NCBI RefSeq assembly: GCF_014692515.1 | Contig: NZ_JACOIK010000004.1 | Location: 124,001-188,000 of the forward strand | Origin: Sphingobacterium micropteri | GTDB taxonomy: Bacteria > Bacteroidota > Bacteroidia > Sphingobacteriales > Sphingobacteriaceae | Direction of reading: 5' to 3' | DNA length: 64,000 bases | Part shown: in pieces, positions 2,414-55,238 of the stretch | How the letters are laid out: each line of letters opens with the position of its first letter | How positions within the stretch are numbered: the first letter of the stretch is position 1 | Position numbers and translations under genes: made by a program | The notes under the pieces: model-generated | The model's input: the letters and a program-made list of their open reading frames with translations, nothing else | What the model was told of the DNA's origin: nothing | Databases searched by the model: none

Positions 2414-2446
2414 AATAGTCACGTTGAATTGTCATTGTGTCTTATT

Positions 2447-2488
2447 AAACAAAAACGCCCTTCAATATTTTGAAGGGCGTTTTTGTTT
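2447..2488. terminator. Strong bidirectional intrinsic terminator
   Basis: A perfect 19-bp inverted repeat (arms 2447-2465 and 2470-2488, 4-base loop TATT). The GC core CGCCCTTC/GAAGGGCG is flanked by A5 on the left and T5 on the right, so it can terminate on both strands. It closes the QEGLA-ATP-grasp transcript. Confidence 0.93.
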
Positions 2489-2597
2489 AATCGTTATTAG
2501 CGCTTTGATCCACTTGGAGAACAAATTTATTTACCAGCTGCAGACAAACTAAAAATAATAAGTTGTATATTTAAACCAAACCTATTGACGTGTTTTT

Positions 2598-12731: not shown

Positions 12732-12942
12732 GGTATGGATTACGTTGTAAATGGAAAGGCGATTCGTTAACTATTGCCGAACAGCGCAGGCCATCTAGGT
12801 TTTTTACTAATGACTTAAAAAAACTACGATTGGACAGAGGCAGATGTGCCGATAGTAAAGGAAATACGACAGATACGACAAGGTTCCTGTTAATATATGT
12901 TAAATATACACTTACTATAAACGAAATGCACGCAATTGGCGT

Positions 12943-12950
12943 TATATTTG
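12943..12950 (+). promoter_or_regulatory. -7 promoter box of sRNA copy A
   Basis: TATATTTG matches TAnnTTTG and is conserved in copies B and D. A shared TGTTAAATATACAC element begins about 46 bases upstream. Confidence 0.8.
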
Positions 12951-12956
12951 TACTTC

Positions 12957-13022
12957 ATAATTTAGGTTTATAATTGGTTAGTTAGTTAAAAATCCTGAGG
13001 CTCCCCGCTTCAGGATTTTTTT
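12957..13022 (+). ncRNA. Small RNA family, copy A
   Basis: The predicted RNA of about 66 nt starts 7 bases after TATATTTG. It has an AU-rich, mostly unpaired 5' part (AATTTAGGTT, then ATAATTGGTTAGTTAG), followed by a terminator hairpin with stem AATCCTGAGGC/GCTTCAGGATT (12991-13001 with 13007-13017) and loop TCCCC, ending in T7. There is no ATG in the transcript, so it is not a leader peptide. Three more copies occur in this window with different downstream genes, which argues for an independent trans-acting RNA rather than a cis leader. I do not recognise a named family. Confidence 0.8.
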
Positions 13023-13090: not shown

Positions 13091-13234
13091 TTAAAACAAT
13101 ACATTGAATACTTTGGCAGCTGGCTTGCAATGCTTTTGGCATGAACAAACAAGTAGATATCTGCATAATGCATTCACCGATTTTTTTACCGCAGTTACCG
13201 AGAAATGCCGGAGCTTGGTCTAATCGTTATTCGG
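13091..13234. repeat. Copy Y of the duplicated upstream region (partner 10249-10385)
   Basis: Intact version of the segment found at 10249-10385. It lies between sRNA copy A and the promoter of the NTF2-like gene. It carries no convincing ORF of its own. Confidence 0.88.
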
Positions 13235-13252
13235 TAAATCTGCATCTCGCTA

Positions 13253-13260
13253 TACCTTTG
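13253..13260 (+). promoter_or_regulatory. -7 promoter box of the NTF2-like gene
   Basis: TACCTTTG (TAnnTTTG) lies 57 bases before the chosen ATG at 13318, giving a leader of about 50 nt. Confidence 0.65.
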
Positions 13261-13317
13261 AAGTATCAAATAAGAAATAGAAAAAATAATATACACATCA
13301 CCTTAAAAACTACAGAT

Positions 13318-13743
13318 ATGAGAACGACATTGAAAACTATCGCAGCAGCATTGATCATGGTTACATCCCTAAGCTCCTTTGCTTCGGAGAAGGCCAATCC
13401 TTTGAAAAACGTAGAATCGGACATGGTAATTGGCTCCTATGTGAATGCTGTTACCGTGGGTAGCATCGACCTGAACAAGTTTCTTTTTGCAGATGATTTC
13501 CAGTACAGCAACGTGAACAACAACGACCGTGCAGGCAAAAAGGAATACATCAAATACCTGAAGGCCAACAAGGGTAACAAATATGACTGCAGGAGCAGCT
13601 ACGAGATCCTATCACAGGATGGAAAGGTATGCGTAGCCAAGGCAACGATGGCATTCGACAACTTCACCCGCGTAGACTATATTACCCTGAACCAGGGAAA
13701 GGACGGCTGGAAAGTAAGCAAAGTGGAAACGACTTATCCGTAG
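13318..13743 (+). CDS. Secreted NTF2-like (lumazine-binding-like) protein
   Basis: 141 residues. The frame is open further upstream, but the ATG at 13318 gives a clean signal peptide (MRTTLKTIAAALIMVTSLSS, cleavage after SFA) and fits the promoter box at 13253. The mature part, VIGSYVNAVTVGSIDLNKFL...SYEILSQDGKVCVAKATMAF..FTRVDYITLNQGKDGWKV, has the cone-shaped NTF2/SnoaL alpha+beta pattern of the putative lumazine-binding family. The binding partner is unknown. A decayed, internally deleted duplicate lies at 10249-10536. A terminator follows. Confidence 0.85.
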   Translation: MRTTLKTIAAALIMVTSLSSFASEKANPLKNVESDMVIGSYVNAVTVGSIDLNKFLFADDFQYSNVNNNDRAGKKEYIKYLKANKGNKYDCRSSYEILSQDGKVCVAKATMAFDNFTRVDYITLNQGKDGWKVSKVETTYP

Positions 13744-16211: not shown

Positions 16212-16425
16212 GCTGTACCCGATTTCACCGTGTAGCCAAGTGGAGATGTAATGTCCTATTGGTTTCATTGATCTTTTCCCGTTTTCTGTTTCGTCTTACT
16301 ACATGAGGTGCATTTTTATCGGCATTAGATTTCGCAGGTGCACATGTCAAATCGGGATGATATCAAGAATAGTTAATATGTGTTAAATATACACTAAGGT
16401 TACACTAAATTGCCGCACTTATCGT

Positions 16426-16433
16426 TATATTTG
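16426..16433 (+). promoter_or_regulatory. -7 promoter box of sRNA copy B
   Basis: TATATTTG, identical to copy A. The shared TTAAATATACAC box starts at 16383. Confidence 0.8.
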
Positions 16434-16439
16434 TACTTC

Positions 16440-16505
16440 ATAATTTAGGTTTATAATTGGTTAGTTAGTTAAAAATCCTGAGGCTCCCCGCTTCAGGATT
16501 TTTTT
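16440..16505 (+). ncRNA. Small RNA family, copy B
   Basis: Identical to copy A from the promoter box through the terminator by eye: the 5' region AATTTAGGTT and ATAATTGGTTAGTTAG, stem AATCCTGAGGC/GCTTCAGGATT (16474-16484 with 16490-16500), loop TCCCC, T7. The downstream gene is on the opposite strand, so a cis leader role is excluded here. Confidence 0.8.
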
Positions 16506-16574: not shown

Positions 16575-16949
16575 CTATGTCTTCATACTTGCGGTCCATT
16601 TTTGGTACCTGATCACTTCCGATTTCAACCTGCTGAGGGCGTAGCCAATAATAGCTACATCATCCACCCATCCCAAAATCGGTACGACATCAGGAACGGC
16701 ATCAAGTGGAGAGATAACATATACAACAGTTGCTACGATAATCCCAAGATTTAGCTTACCTATTTTATAACGGCCTTTAATCGAATCGTTAGCCATCGCT
16801 AGAATAAGTTTAAATTCCGCTTTTCTATCGGAAAGATGATCCGCTAAATTATCGGCATCGGCTATGTCTTTATTAGTAAGACTATATGTTTTGAAAACCT
16901 TGAAAAGCGCCAACGCTTTTCCCAAATACTTCAATTTTTTCAGTACCAT
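16575..16949 (-). CDS. DUF1232 (YkvA-like) membrane-associated protein
   Basis: 124 residues. The DUF1232 core is visible: VVYVISPLDAVPDVVPILGW followed by VDDVAIIGYALSRLKSEV (about 74-110). One hydrophobic helix covers the VIATVVYVISPLD part. Function of the family is not established to my knowledge. It is a single gene between sRNA copy B and yjbQ. Confidence 0.9.
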   Translation of the reverse strand: MVLKKLKYLGKALALFKVFKTYSLTNKDIADADNLADHLSDRKAEFKLILAMANDSIKGRYKIGKLNLGIIVATVVYVISPLDAVPDVVPILGWVDDVAIIGYALSRLKSEVIRYQKWTASMKT

Positions 16950-21000: not shown

Positions 21001-21004
21001 TATG

Positions 21005-21082
21005 TGCTTTAGGGGTATTCTGAAAAGAGTTGAGAGAGTCCCTTTGAACCTGATGCGGATCACACCGACGTAGGGAAAAGCA
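21005..21082 (+). promoter_or_regulatory. TPP riboswitch (THI box) of the thiM operon
   Basis: P1 TGCTTT pairs with AAAGCA at the two ends. Inside are the hallmark TPP aptamer blocks: AGGGGT near the 5' end, the GTTGAGAGAG region, CCTTTGAACCTGAT, and GGATCACACCGACGTAGGGA. It lies 80 bp before thiM. The rest of the leader (21083-21161) has a GACTT/AAGTC hairpin and a competing AAAGTCT just before the ATG, which could form the expression platform. Confidence 0.96.
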
Positions 21083-21161
21083 AATAAAGACTTCTTTTAT
21101 AAGTCGCCTCTTGTTTGTTTTCGGTTTTCCTAAAGCTGTTTTTATCTCAAAATAAAGTCTA

Positions 21162-24591: not shown

Positions 24592-24671
24592 TACGCATAA
24601 AAATTAAGGTCATTTTGTTAAGAGATGTTAAATACACATCGCGATAATACGAAAGGCACGTAAAATGCTGT

Positions 24672-24679
24672 TATAATAG
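24672..24679 (+). promoter_or_regulatory. Diverged -7 box of sRNA copy C
   Basis: TATAATAG replaces TATATTTG at the same place relative to the RNA. TTAAATAC lies 44 bases upstream as in copies A and B. Loss of TTTG may weaken this promoter. Confidence 0.55.
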
Positions 24680-24685
24680 TACTTC

Positions 24686-24750
24686 ATAATTTAGGTTAAT
24701 AATTGGTTAGTTAGTAGAAATCCTGAAGCTCCCCGCTTCAGGATTTTTTT
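24686..24750 (+). ncRNA. Small RNA family, copy C
   Basis: Same 5' block as A and B with one T-to-A change (AATTTAGGTTAATAATTGG) and a slightly shorter linker (GTTAGTAGAA). The stem AATCCTGAAGC/GCTTCAGGATT (24719-24729 with 24735-24745) has an A-U pair where A and B have G-U, the loop is TCCCC, then T7. It stands between the SpoIIAA-like and DUF1304 genes; the 297-bp gap holds nothing else recognisable. Confidence 0.75.
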
Positions 24751-25277: not shown

Positions 25278-25856
25278 TCATTGGCATACCAAGCAGCAGA
25301 AAAATACATAAATAAGAACGTTCTTATTTTTAAAAATTTGCTTTAAGGTGGATATCGCTTTCGACCTTGCAAAATAAACATTGCTTTGTGTCGTATGGAG
25401 GCGGGTGCAGATTTCATCCACATGTAGTCCCTCTAAGTAAGTCATTTTGAATATTGCAGCCTGTTGCTCGGGTAATTTTTCTAATTCAGCAATCACTAAC
25501 TGGATCAGCTCAACGCGGATTATCCTGGTCATGACATCATCGTCTGCCATTGCCATTTCTTCTTCTATCTCTACATCCGAAGATCGCCTATATTGCGGGG
25601 AATCAAGATAATCATAACAGGCATTGCGCGTTGCAATAAATAAAAAGGCTTTTATATTAGATTCCTTTACCACCTTATCCCTTCGCTGCCAAAGTTTAAA
25701 AAATGCATCGGATACAATTTCTTCGGCCATCTCCTTATTCCGGATGATGGAATGGGCAAAGAAGCGCAGTTCCTTACCATATCTAGTCATCAGATATTTT
25801 AGAGCAGATTCCCTGCCATTTTTAAAATCTTCAAAATATCCAATGTTGGTTTTCAT
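25278..25856 (-). CDS. ECF sigma-70 factor (FecI-like, PUL-associated)
   Basis: 192 residues. Region 2 is SALKYLMTRYGKELRFFAHS..NKEMAEEIVSDAFFKLWQRRD..KAFLFIATRNACYDYL, and region 4 is LEKLPEQQAAIFKMTYLEGLHVDEICTRLHTTQSNVYFARSKAISTLK. The odd hydrophobic tail IYVFFCCLVCQ is common in style among Bacteroidota ECF factors. It probably partners the FecR at 36.3-35.1 kb to switch on the SusC/SusD genes. It is unusual in being at the far end of the locus, behind a terminator, as its own unit. Confidence 0.92.
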   Translation of the reverse strand: MKTNIGYFEDFKNGRESALKYLMTRYGKELRFFAHSIIRNKEMAEEIVSDAFFKLWQRRDKVVKESNIKAFLFIATRNACYDYLDSPQYRRSSDVEIEEEMAMADDDVMTRIIRVELIQLVIAELEKLPEQQAAIFKMTYLEGLHVDEICTRLHTTQSNVYFARSKAISTLKQIFKNKNVLIYVFFCCLVCQ

Positions 25857-31457: not shown

Positions 31458-34400
31458 TTAAAATGTAAAATCAACACCAAAAGAGAACATTCTCAACTTC
31501 GGATACCCTCCGCCGTAGCGTCCATTGAGCCCTACCTCTGGATCGTATCCCTCGAATTTTGTGAATGTATAAGGGTTTTCTGCATTAATAGAAATCCGCG
31601 CCTGCTTTACCCATTTTTGATTTTCTAATGGAATACGGTAGCCAACGTTAATATTTTGGATACGCAGAAAACTACCATCTTTTATAAACCAATCGGACGT
31701 ATAATGTAATCTCCCCTGTCTCACGCTTGGATATTCATTACTTGGATTATCGGGTGTCCACCTCAGGGGAACATACAATGCGGAATTGTACATACCACTC
31801 CATAAAACGTCATTACCAAATACGCCGTTAAGAAATACATTCATATCCAAGTTTTTATACCGGAGATTGAGATTTAAACTCGCCATAAAATCGGGATTAG
31901 GGTCGCCTATCACCGTTCGATCTTTGGTATCGAATACACCATCCTGATTAAGGTCTGTGTAAAGAAACTCACCTGCTCGTGCTTCCGCACCGACTAATCC
32001 TGCAGCTTCCCCTTCCCTATCCGATTGAACAATGCCATGCACACGATATCCGTAAAATACATTTACCGGTAAGCCCACCGCCAAAATATTTGGTGAAGGT
32101 TCTCTAAAGGGATCCATACCGCCACCGTAATATTCATAATAAGTGTCTGATAAAAAGTCTCGATTAAGCCCGGAACTGATAGCATTTCCCAGACTGACTA
32201 CTTTGTTGACGTTTCTGGAGAATATAAATGTACCCGACAGCTCCCAATCCTGCTTGCGGATGATATCTCCATGAAGTGTAAGTTCTATACCCTTATTATT
32301 AATTTCTCCGTCATTGACCCACATACGATCATAACCTGAACTCAGTGTTAAGTAGCGTTCCCGCAACAGATCAAAAGTATTTTTACTGTAATAATCTACC
32401 GTCACCGCTAGCCTATTATTAAAAAATGAAAAGTCTGCACCGAAATTGTATTGTGCCGTCGTCTCCCAACGCAAATCTTTGTTGGGTATACCTCCCCATT
32501 CCTTATATCGCCCACCTACGCCAGTATAACCGATAACATATCCGGGTCCTATCGCTGTACTCCATCCTCCATCGGTATAAAATGTTTCAATGCCATAACG
32601 GCTCAATGTCTGATAGGGAGAAATACCCTGATTACCGGATATACCATAACTCGCTCGCAGTTTAAATTCATCGAATAGATTTAAATCTTTTATAAACTGT
32701 TCTTGATGCAGCTTCCAGCTCACTGCTCCAGATGGGAAATAGGCCCATTTATGGTTTGTACTGAATTTGGAAGAACCGTCCGAACGCATCGTTAACGTAA
32801 GAAGATACTTGTCTTTGAATGCATAGTTTAAGCGTCCAAAATACGAGAGTAGTTTCGTCTCAGTCTGCCCATTACGATGTCGATTGAGCTCCGGTGAGCC
32901 CGATGCCATATTTTCGTTATTCAAGGCACCATTCTTAAAATTATACGACTCCATTGCCGAGCTACGAGCAAGGGAATATTCGTAGGAATGCCCAAGCATA
33001 GCGGTGAGATCGTGGTTTTGCTTAACTAATTTTTGATAAGTCAGATAGGTATCTGCCGTATACACCTGCCCCATCCAATTATCTAAATATGCTGCACCTT
33101 TATTATTTGTACCGGTTTCGGTATATCTATCCGGCTCGAAACGATCCTGTATAGAAGCACCGTATTTATAATTAAGCTGCGATTTGAGACTCAGACCTGA
33201 GATCAGCTGCAGGTCCAACAGCCAGGAGGAAATGATGTCAGTTCCTTTAGCGGTATTTTTACGATTGTCTGTCCAAGCCATAGGATGACTGTAATCCGCA
33301 TTTCCTTCCAAAAAATAACTTCCATCTTCGTTGTATACTGGCCATAGCGGGTTCCGCCAATAAGCTAATCCGGTATTGGTACGACGATTGTCTTTAGAAA
33401 GATTGTTAAACGCACTGATATTTAAATATTTATTAAATTGATGTCTAATATTCGAACTCACAATCTGTTTACCGTAGTTATCTCTGATGTAGGACCCTTG
33501 TTGTAAAAGGTTGTTTGCACTCAGGTTAAATGAAGTTTTGTCATTTGCGGTTGCCAGCGATATCGTCGATGTGTTGTTTACTGGATTATCCCTGAATACA
33601 ACTTTAGACCAATCTGTAAAATGTGGCCATGCACCGCTCTGAATTTCATCAACAGCGGGAAAGTATATGCCTGTTGAGTTCACTGCTCCAACGTAAAGCG
33701 GTGGCATATTGCCGTTAATCTTGGCCTCGTTGTCCAATTGGGCCATTAGCGCGGGATCTGTCCATTGGATAAACTCGGATGTGAATTGGGATAAAGTCGT
33801 CTGGTGCTTAATACTAATATCGGTCTGCCCGTTTTTAGCCTTCTTCGTTGTGACCATAATGACGCCATTCGCTCCCCGAGATCCATATATGGATGATGCG
33901 GAAGCATCTTTTAGCACCTCGATCGATACAATATCAGCTGGGTTAATCTGCTTGAGGTTACCGGCATCGCCGATAGGAAATCCATCTACCACAATCAATG
34001 GTGAATTAGAGCCCCGCAAAGAACTTCCACCACGTATGCGGACAGTAGTGCCTGCGCCAGGATCTTGGGAAGTCTTGACTATTTGAAGGCCGGCGGCTCG
34101 TCCTTGCAATAAACTTTCGATGGAGTTTGCGGGAATATCTTGGATATCCTCGGTTTTTACATTGGTCATCGAGCCCGTTAGATCTTTCTTTTTTATGGTA
34201 CCATATCCAACGACAAGCACCTCATCGATATTATCCATAGATTCTTTCAACACCACATCAATTATATTACTGTCCTCTACAGGGACTTCTTGTTTGTCAT
34301 ATCCGACCATGCTGAAGAGTAGAATCTCGCTCTCAAATAATACAGGAATGCTATAATTCCCTCCTTCATCCGTGGAAGTTACTTTGGAGATTTGTACTGT

Positions 34401-34880
34401 ACTAACCGTTACCCCTCGAATGGGCTGCCCGTGCGCATCAGTAACTTTACCGTTAATAATACGTTCTTGCTTTTGCATCGTTGTCGTTAGAGGTGATGTT
34501 TTGGAAGCAACCTTTTGATCTACCGGAAGTGGTTTTAGGATGATCGTTCCGGCACTAAGTACCCAGCCTACTGGTTGATCTCGTAAAATTTCTTCCATAG
34601 CGCGTTGCAATTCCATGTTTTGCACATTGGCATTTACAGACAATTTTGCAAGCTCCTTTCCATACAGGAAAAAGGGATATCCCGATTGATCTTGCACACT
34701 CTTCATAACCTTTGCTAAAGGCTGATTATGTGCGCTAATATTAATTTTCTGGGCTGAGCTGTGATGAGCTAGAACCTGGAAAACAGTTAAAAACGTAATA
34801 CATACTGCTAGTTTCATAACCAGAATACATCGGAATGCTAAAGGCCAAACTCGGTCTTTAACATATTCATAAAAAATCAT
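31458..34880 (-). CDS. SusC/RagA TonB-dependent transporter with STN signalling domain
   Basis: 1140 residues. Signal peptide (ends about 44, SSA-Q), then an STN domain (about 46-120, NQPLAKVMKSVQDQSGYPFF), a carboxypeptidase-regulatory-like beta domain (RIINGKVTDAHGQPIRGVTV), plug (VVGYGTIKKKDLTGSMTNV, RIRGGSSLRGSNSPLIVVDG, VLKDASASSIYGSRGANGV) and the long beta-barrel ending in VDFTF. The STN domain fits signalling through the FecR anti-sigma and the ECF sigma factor. Partner of the SusD behind it. Confidence 0.96.
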   Translation of the reverse strand: MIFYEYVKDRVWPLAFRCILVMKLAVCITFLTVFQVLAHHSSAQKINISAHNQPLAKVMKSVQDQSGYPFFLYGKELAKLSVNANVQNMELQRAMEEILRDQPVGWVLSAGTIILKPLPVDQKVASKTSPLTTTMQKQERIINGKVTDAHGQPIRGVTVSTVQISKVTSTDEGGNYSIPVLFESEILLFSMVGYDKQEVPVEDSNIIDVVLKESMDNIDEVLVVGYGTIKKKDLTGSMTNVKTEDIQDIPANSIESLLQGRAAGLQIVKTSQDPGAGTTVRIRGGSSLRGSNSPLIVVDGFPIGDAGNLKQINPADIVSIEVLKDASASSIYGSRGANGVIMVTTKKAKNGQTDISIKHQTTLSQFTSEFIQWTDPALMAQLDNEAKINGNMPPLYVGAVNSTGIYFPAVDEIQSGAWPHFTDWSKVVFRDNPVNNTSTISLATANDKTSFNLSANNLLQQGSYIRDNYGKQIVSSNIRHQFNKYLNISAFNNLSKDNRRTNTGLAYWRNPLWPVYNEDGSYFLEGNADYSHPMAWTDNRKNTAKGTDIISSWLLDLQLISGLSLKSQLNYKYGASIQDRFEPDRYTETGTNNKGAAYLDNWMGQVYTADTYLTYQKLVKQNHDLTAMLGHSYEYSLARSSAMESYNFKNGALNNENMASGSPELNRHRNGQTETKLLSYFGRLNYAFKDKYLLTLTMRSDGSSKFSTNHKWAYFPSGAVSWKLHQEQFIKDLNLFDEFKLRASYGISGNQGISPYQTLSRYGIETFYTDGGWSTAIGPGYVIGYTGVGGRYKEWGGIPNKDLRWETTAQYNFGADFSFFNNRLAVTVDYYSKNTFDLLRERYLTLSSGYDRMWVNDGEINNKGIELTLHGDIIRKQDWELSGTFIFSRNVNKVVSLGNAISSGLNRDFLSDTYYEYYGGGMDPFREPSPNILAVGLPVNVFYGYRVHGIVQSDREGEAAGLVGAEARAGEFLYTDLNQDGVFDTKDRTVIGDPNPDFMASLNLNLRYKNLDMNVFLNGVFGNDVLWSGMYNSALYVPLRWTPDNPSNEYPSVRQGRLHYTSDWFIKDGSFLRIQNINVGYRIPLENQKWVKQARISINAENPYTFTKFEGYDPEVGLNGRYGGGYPKLRMFSFGVDFTF

Positions 34881-54705: not shown

Positions 54706-55134
54706 ATGCGAAATACGATATTTTCGTTGATAGCAATAAGCATGCTTATCGGCATGCTTATTCTCTCTTGTCAACCCCATGTAAGTATCGAAACCGCACA
54801 ATATGCCATAAATGGGCAGAAACTTTATGTTACCCACTGCCAGAGTTGCCATGGTGCAAAAGGCGAGGGATTGGGCATGCTCTATCCCCCATTGACCGAT
54901 ACCACCTATTTACAGAAAAACAGATCGAAACTAGCGTGTATTGTTAAGAACGGCATGACAGGCCCTGTCGAGGTTAATGGAAAAATATTTGAGGGCGATA
55001 TGCCCGCAAATGCCGAATTGACTAACGTCGATATCGCCTATATATTGACGTATATCACCACTACATTTGGTAATAATACCGAAACATATACACAAGAAGA
55101 AGTTAAAAAAAGTCTAGCGGATTGTCGTATGTAA
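54706..55134 (+). CDS. Cytochrome c lipoprotein
   Basis: 142 residues. Lipobox LILSC (Cys about 22), heme motif CQSCH in YVTHCQSCHGAKGEGLGM (about 44-61), PPLTDTTYL, and axial Met in FEGDMPANAELTNVDIAYIL. One c-type heme, anchored in the periplasm or outer leaflet. Third gene of the SCO operon, which points to electron transfer linked to a copper oxidase. Confidence 0.94.
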   Translation: MRNTIFSLIAISMLIGMLILSCQPHVSIETAQYAINGQKLYVTHCQSCHGAKGEGLGMLYPPLTDTTYLQKNRSKLACIVKNGMTGPVEVNGKIFEGDMPANAELTNVDIAYILTYITTTFGNNTETYTQEEVKKSLADCRM

Positions 55135-55153: not shown

Positions 55154-55224
55154 AAAAAAAGAAGGTTTCCAAACGGGGAGAATGGAAACCTTTCTAAACT
55201 AACCAATTATAAACCTAAATTATG
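55154..55224 (-). ncRNA. Small RNA family, copy D (minus strand)
   Basis: About 71 nt. The 5' region is as in copies A and B (AATTTAGGTT, then ATAATTGGTTAGTTTAG). The hairpin stem is different: AAGGTTTCCA/TGGAAACCTT (minus strand 55192-55183 with 55171-55162), but the loop keeps CTCCCCG. T7 follows. Promoter box TATCTTTG at 55238-55231 and TTAAATAT at 55290-55283. It converges on the cytochrome c gene, so it is an independent unit. The different stem with the same loop supports a real RNA structure. Confidence 0.8.
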
Positions 55225-55230
55225 ATACTA

Positions 55231-55238
55231 CAAAGATA
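55231..55238 (-). promoter_or_regulatory. -7 promoter box of sRNA copy D
   Basis: TATCTTTG on the minus strand, an exact TAnnTTTG. Confidence 0.78.

Follow-up and report, generated by a model that had tools for sequence, protein, structure and literature searches.

A multicopy family of candidate small RNAs in Sphingobacteriaceae with SusC transporters as its predicted targets

Four short loci in a 64,000-nucleotide stretch of the Sphingobacterium micropteri genome (GCF_014692515.1, contig NZ_JACOIK010000004.1, positions 124,001 to 188,000; hereafter the window) very probably belong to a large family of small RNA (sRNA) genes. Each copy is most likely an independent gene for a short (~60–70 nt) noncoding RNA that joins an unstructured, near-invariant pairing region to an intrinsic terminator. 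The explanation that best accounts for the whole, which is held with moderate confidence, is that these RNAs would act in trans to block translation of SusC, an outer-membrane sugar importer, and would integrate different signals over their many copies. To our knowledge, few sRNAs of the Bacteroidota have a known function, and model work on them has been done mostly in Bacteroides. The literature searched yielded no paper on Sphingobacteriaceae sRNAs.

The window copies and their structure

Copy 1 occupies 12957–13022 (+), with a conserved block at 12955–12983 and a terminator hairpin at about 12988–13019 that is followed by a T run, and it scores 94.6 bits against a covariance model built from the copies in its own genome. 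The same model matches copy 2 at 16440–16505 (+; block 16438–16466, terminator about 16471–16502), copy 3 at 24686–24750 (+; block 24684–24712, terminator about 24718–24746) and copy 4 at 55154–55224 (−; block 55225–55197, terminator about 55192–55162). The four copies reach 83–95 bits (E 1e-18 to 3e-16), and no further match in the window is better than E 0.35. Both the window sequence and these E values bear out the initial annotation, which had placed four copies with a near-invariant 5′ block at these positions.

The 29-nt 5′ block common to the four copies, TCATAATTTAGGTTnATAATTGGTTAGTT, consists of TCATAATTTAGGTT, then T or A, then ATAATTGGTTAGTT, and is otherwise unchanged; copy 3 carries the A variant. 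Every reading frame of the block is interrupted by a stop codon and, as had been noted earlier, there is no ATG; it is therefore no small gene. In each copy a short linker separates the block from a GC-rich hairpin, with CTCCCCG in the loop and a T run behind it, so that the intrinsic terminator originally described is present in all four.

The 5′ block is predicted to be mostly unpaired, and the hairpin covaries. In 64 distinct copies, drawn from Sphingobacteriaceae and their viruses, changes on both sides are found at 11 of 11 terminator pairs, 97.5% of cells are paired (shuffles 66%), and covariation scores 0.886 compared to 0.262, in an alignment fitted to the model, which favours pairing; sliding the partners by one column gives at most 0.219. 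The terminator loop is C-rich in most copies, 220 of 254 containing CTCCCC, TTCCCC or GCCCAT.

Other RNA matches also occur in the window. A TPP riboswitch (RF00059, 71.6 bits) lies at 21001–21093 (+), and an Rfam STnc310 match at 2434–2491 (+), at 41.8 bits against a threshold of 40, is probably a false-positive terminator-like hairpin.

Upstream regions, genomic distribution and viral copies

The copies are preceded by recognisable promoter elements. A TAnnTTTG box ends 7 nt ahead of the candidate start in copies 1, 2 and 4. It reads TATATTTG at 12943–12950 (+; a −7 type box whose distance is fixed across copies) and at 16426–16433 (+), and TATCTTTG at 55231–55238 (−), where TTTG near −33 completes the canonical sigma-ABfr type. 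Copy 3 has the diverged box TATAATAG (24672–24679, +), in agreement with the three intact boxes and one diverged box reported initially, together with a weak sigma-54-like GGCAC-N5-ATGC (24655–24668, +). A GTTAA-N5-GTTAA direct repeat, a putative activator site, lies 5′ of copy 1 (12889–12904, +), and GTTAA direct repeats are likewise found 5′ of copy 2 (16372–16387, +) and copy 3 (24617–24632, +).

Unrelated promoter types precede the copies, and spacing is fixed within each type. Among 254 distinct upstream regions, with distances measured to TTTAGG and shuffled sequences as nulls, a sigma-54-like TGGCA[C/T]-N4–6-TTG is present in 47, mostly 33–38 nt upstream (shuffled mean 0.2), and GTTAA-N4–7-GTTAA in 84, mostly 71–75 nt upstream (shuffles 0.4). 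GTGT-N-ACAC is found in 37, 18 of them at exactly 35 nt upstream (shuffles 0.5), and TAnnTTTG in 55, mostly 10–11 nt upstream (shuffles 6.9); the GTGT/ACAC putative operator sits inside the TAnnTTTG promoter. These upstream regions are related to one another, so each count includes cases that did not arise independently; within every class the spacing is nevertheless fixed. RpoN is encoded in the S. micropteri genome.

In several genera, a tRNA-like gene stands immediately 5′ of the block. Class-II tRNA-like elements that neither ARAGORN nor the Rfam tRNA model detected were seen directly 5′ of copies in L092 (minus strand, ~1680–1560) and L123 (minus strand, two tandem copies), and also ahead of the core in L094, L095, L106 and L139. 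The loop at the anticodon position of these elements, CACCTCCTTGT, resembles the 3′ end of 16S rRNA (anti-Shine-Dalgarno).

The initial description of a four-copy family holds for the window and understates the genome. S. micropteri contains 23 sites within 3 mismatches of a 25-mer, compared to 0 for a reversed-pattern control, and 25 copies by the covariance model. All 25 Sphingobacterium genomes, including this one, carry between 6 and 37 copies. The covariance search across Sphingobacteriaceae, which the initial annotation had proposed, found at least one copy in 99 of 121 genomes and 19 of 25 genera; 18 genomes of the family were read in detail. The matches listed in a scan of named genomes belong only to Sphingobacteriaceae and Sphingobacteriales, and their genera include Sphingobacterium, Parapedobacter, Olivibacter, Arcticibacter, Pedobacter, Daejeonella and Paradesertivirga. 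Pattern matches beyond the Sphingobacteriaceae, among 395 genomes of the class, were inspected and found to be at chance level, equal to the reversed control and without terminators.

Within S. micropteri, at least 8 copies lie on one strand within ~77 kb (G000:C31:319000–395500), and rpoN (330458–330934) is inside the same stretch. A secreted NTF2-like/lumazine-binding gene family (PF12893) is tandemly expanded in this genome, with a window member at 13141–13743 and paralogues in L008, L010, L011 and L023; five paralogues have an sRNA copy 180–340 nt upstream, a pattern of co-duplication.

The exact 18-base core also occurs in 41 IMG/VR contigs, about 33 of which have the flank CATAATTT and a hairpin behind the core. 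In viral contigs L151 and L145 the copy is in the packaging/head region, adjoining terminase and portal genes, and in L151, L155, L167 and L168 it lies within a few bases 3′ of a tRNA. An intergenic sequence of Tenacibaculum phage JQ, GTTTTCATAATTTAGTTTTTTAATTGGTTA (L212, 1500–1545), matches the core at 93% identity across 29 nt (E 8e-4) and has no hairpin; it may be a flavobacterial relative.

Predicted SusC targets and competing explanations

Complementarity of the block to the start regions of SusC-like genes makes SusC the predicted target class; one member in the window is the TonB-dependent transporter gene at 31458–34880 (−; Pfam Plug and CarbopepD_reg_2, SusC cluster). The target scan covered 2.46 Mb (51%) of the S. 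micropteri genome, with 1861 ORFs called and clustered. Against the start regions (−70 to +30) of 32 SusC-like genes, the 31-nt block has a mean duplex energy of −13.1, compared to −10.7 (sd 0.6) for dinucleotide-shuffled seeds, none of 120 being as low. The difference between SusC and 250 other genes is −3.07, compared to −0.41 (sd 0.56) for shuffled seeds. This shift (z −4.1) is seen at −70 to +30, and no shift is seen at −170 to −70, +30 to +130 or +400 to +500 (z +0.4, +0.3 and −0.5). It is seen again at five SusC genes from the loci of other species, where 1 of 100 shuffles is as low.

With a 20-nt core, the U variant gives a SusC difference of −2.37, beyond all 40 shuffles (best −1.86), and the A variant gives −1.58, inside the range of 40 shuffles. 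The most extreme 5% of predicted pairs with this core include 7 SusC genes, compared to up to 8 in shuffles, and so are not exceptionally over-represented there; the SusC signal comes from the class being shifted as a whole. The 5′ UTRs point the same way: AACCAA, the complement of UUGGUU in the block, is their top enriched 6-mer (7 of 32 SusC genes compared to 35 of 1795; p 4e-6, uncorrected for the number of words), and ATAAAC and ACCAAT are also among the top five, all three being exact complements of the core. Such words could serve otherwise, for example as a translation enhancer.

Other targets were considered in the same way. The seed complement is in no excess over all start codons taken together. 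Compared with shuffled seeds, start-region duplex energies show no signal for FecR genes, no clear shift for ECF genes, and an intermediate shift for SusD (4 of 120 shuffles as low), which is not claimed as a target. An ECF sigma factor gene near copy 3 (25278–25856, −) had the strongest predicted pairing among the 1230 genes first scanned (−23.5 kcal/mol) and was rejected as a candidate; 6 of 40 shuffled seeds paired as well or better.

In the proposed mechanism, the 5′ block would pair with susC start regions, and the paired sRNA would keep SusC from being translated, acting in trans like FopS in Bacteroides. Through the many copies, different signals would be fed into one shared output, the proposed sources being sigma-54 activators, a regulator of the GTTAA repeats, a GTGT/ACAC repressor, the housekeeping sigma factor and co-transcription with tRNA. 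Repression of the receptors is a reasonable, if not a strong, expectation from the predicted pairing. From sequence we infer that the copies are transcribed, that the direction is repression, and what the signals are. The earlier proposal of a multicopy, trans-acting sRNA family gains support from the independent promoters, the unstructured block, the covarying terminator, the unrelated neighbours, the lack of coding potential, the conservation across the family and the predicted target class.

Three other explanations have to be weighed. That the copies are cis leaders or attenuators of downstream genes is the least probable of these and very unlikely: the downstream gene is codirectional at copies 1 and 3, and five copies lie ahead of the NTF2-like paralogues, but neighbours differ among copies, a strong terminator closes each, and the next gene is tail-on at copy 2 (16575–16949, −) and copy 4 (54706–55134, +), in keeping with the initial judgement. 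It is only slightly less improbable that an element of repetitive DNA, either of REP or MITE type or a mobile terminator, has spread without RNA function. The large copy number, local clusters (eight on one contig stretch), phage copies and co-duplication with the NTF2-like gene would all fit such an element; however, conservation is limited to the RNA part, the upstream regions are unrelated between classes and yet each has a recognised promoter at fixed spacing, the terminator covaries, and the family is kept in 19 of 25 genera.

A third explanation accepts the sRNA family and holds that the main partner of the invariant block is a protein (in a sponge or RNP) and not susC mRNAs. In many genera the invariant stretch exceeds 20 nt, beyond the need of a pairing seed, and the C-rich terminator loop is also conserved (220/254). 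This explanation is nevertheless unlikely, as the complementarity is SusC-specific and localised at starts, and the S. micropteri genome has no RRM_1 protein. If pairing with susC mRNAs is true, sRNA control of glycan uptake extends beyond gut species, to a family found in most sampled genera of the environmentally important Sphingobacteriaceae with up to ~37 copies per genome and one predicted target class, the SusC nutrient receptors. The reason for maintaining dozens of paralogous sRNAs in one bacterium becomes testable here, with one shared seed behind different promoters, and the phage-borne copies offer a testable link between sRNAs and phage–host conflict.

Comparison with known small RNAs

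FopS of B. thetaiotaomicron comprises 14 paralogous sRNAs of ~65–70 nt, which act as repressors of SusC translation and have the RRM protein RbpB as a binding partner (PMC11697453). The Sphingobacteriaceae RNAs resemble FopS (RF04319) in size, in high copy number (14 per genome for FopS), in a single-stranded conserved 5′ seed followed by an intrinsic terminator, in the susC mRNA start regions as targets (here predicted by computation), and in having phage copies. The two differ in that the Sphingobacteriaceae family belongs to another order (Sphingobacteriales) and has a conserved C-rich terminator loop, and in that sigma-ABfr promoters are used throughout FopS while sigma-54-like, GTTAA-repeat, operator and tRNA-linked copies are found here. 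The FopS 5′ sequence GTGTTTTTCATAGTATTAGATTTAAGGTTAACAAA is weakly alignable to the block; for the seed R1′ the similarity is weak, the alignment running TTTTCATA..TTAG..TTTA..GGTTA (p 0.009 against dinucleotide and 0.004 against mononucleotide shuffles). As the two agree in size, in copy number and in target class, and are weakly similar at the 5′ end, the family probably works like Bacteroides FopS.

RF04319 recovers Bacteroides FopS at 77–79 bits as a positive control, and exceeds its gathering score of 56 bits in 0 of 61 Sphingobacteriaceae genomes, with two sampled copies at 14.5 and 17 bits. The RbpB type of protein (RRM_1, PF00076) has no match in the S. micropteri genome, and the Bacteroides control is positive. 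The family is therefore not filed as FopS. The window copies match no Rfam family at its gathering score, with only weak sub-threshold matches, in line with the initial remark that they were not recognised as a named RNA, alongside the resemblance to FopS in build and predicted targets. The RNA family is new, but its kind is known.

True distant homology with FopS in one Bacteroidota-wide superfamily is compatible with the favoured explanation, and is a real possibility, although somewhat short of an even one. The aligned blocks, the agreement in size, in copy number, in carriage by phages and in SusC as target, and the complementarity of the FopS seed itself to SusC in the S. micropteri genome (z −3.0) argue for it; the RF04319 scores argue against it, and convergence on one target region could yield equal similarity. 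A broader and rather doubtful extension is a phylum-wide superfamily of multicopy sRNAs that mimic the antisense strand of the SusC initiation region, with FopS as one branch. The Sphingobacteriaceae copies would then serve as an array for integrating signals, with sigma-54, repressor, direct-repeat activator and tRNA-linked members, and phage copies might switch off SusC-type receptors and so exclude rival phages.

In GibS of B. thetaiotaomicron, too, a 5′ seed that is unstructured and highly conserved pairs with targets at their start codons, but GibS is a single-copy RNA of 145 nt with two seeds, other targets and promoter motif 2 (PMC7366714). Outside the Bacteroidota, the LhrC, Qrr and Cia-dependent sRNAs (as cited in PMC11697453) are unrelated in sequence and targets and have far fewer copies, but they too are sets of several near-identical sRNAs with a shared seed, in which signals are integrated through copy number and promoters.
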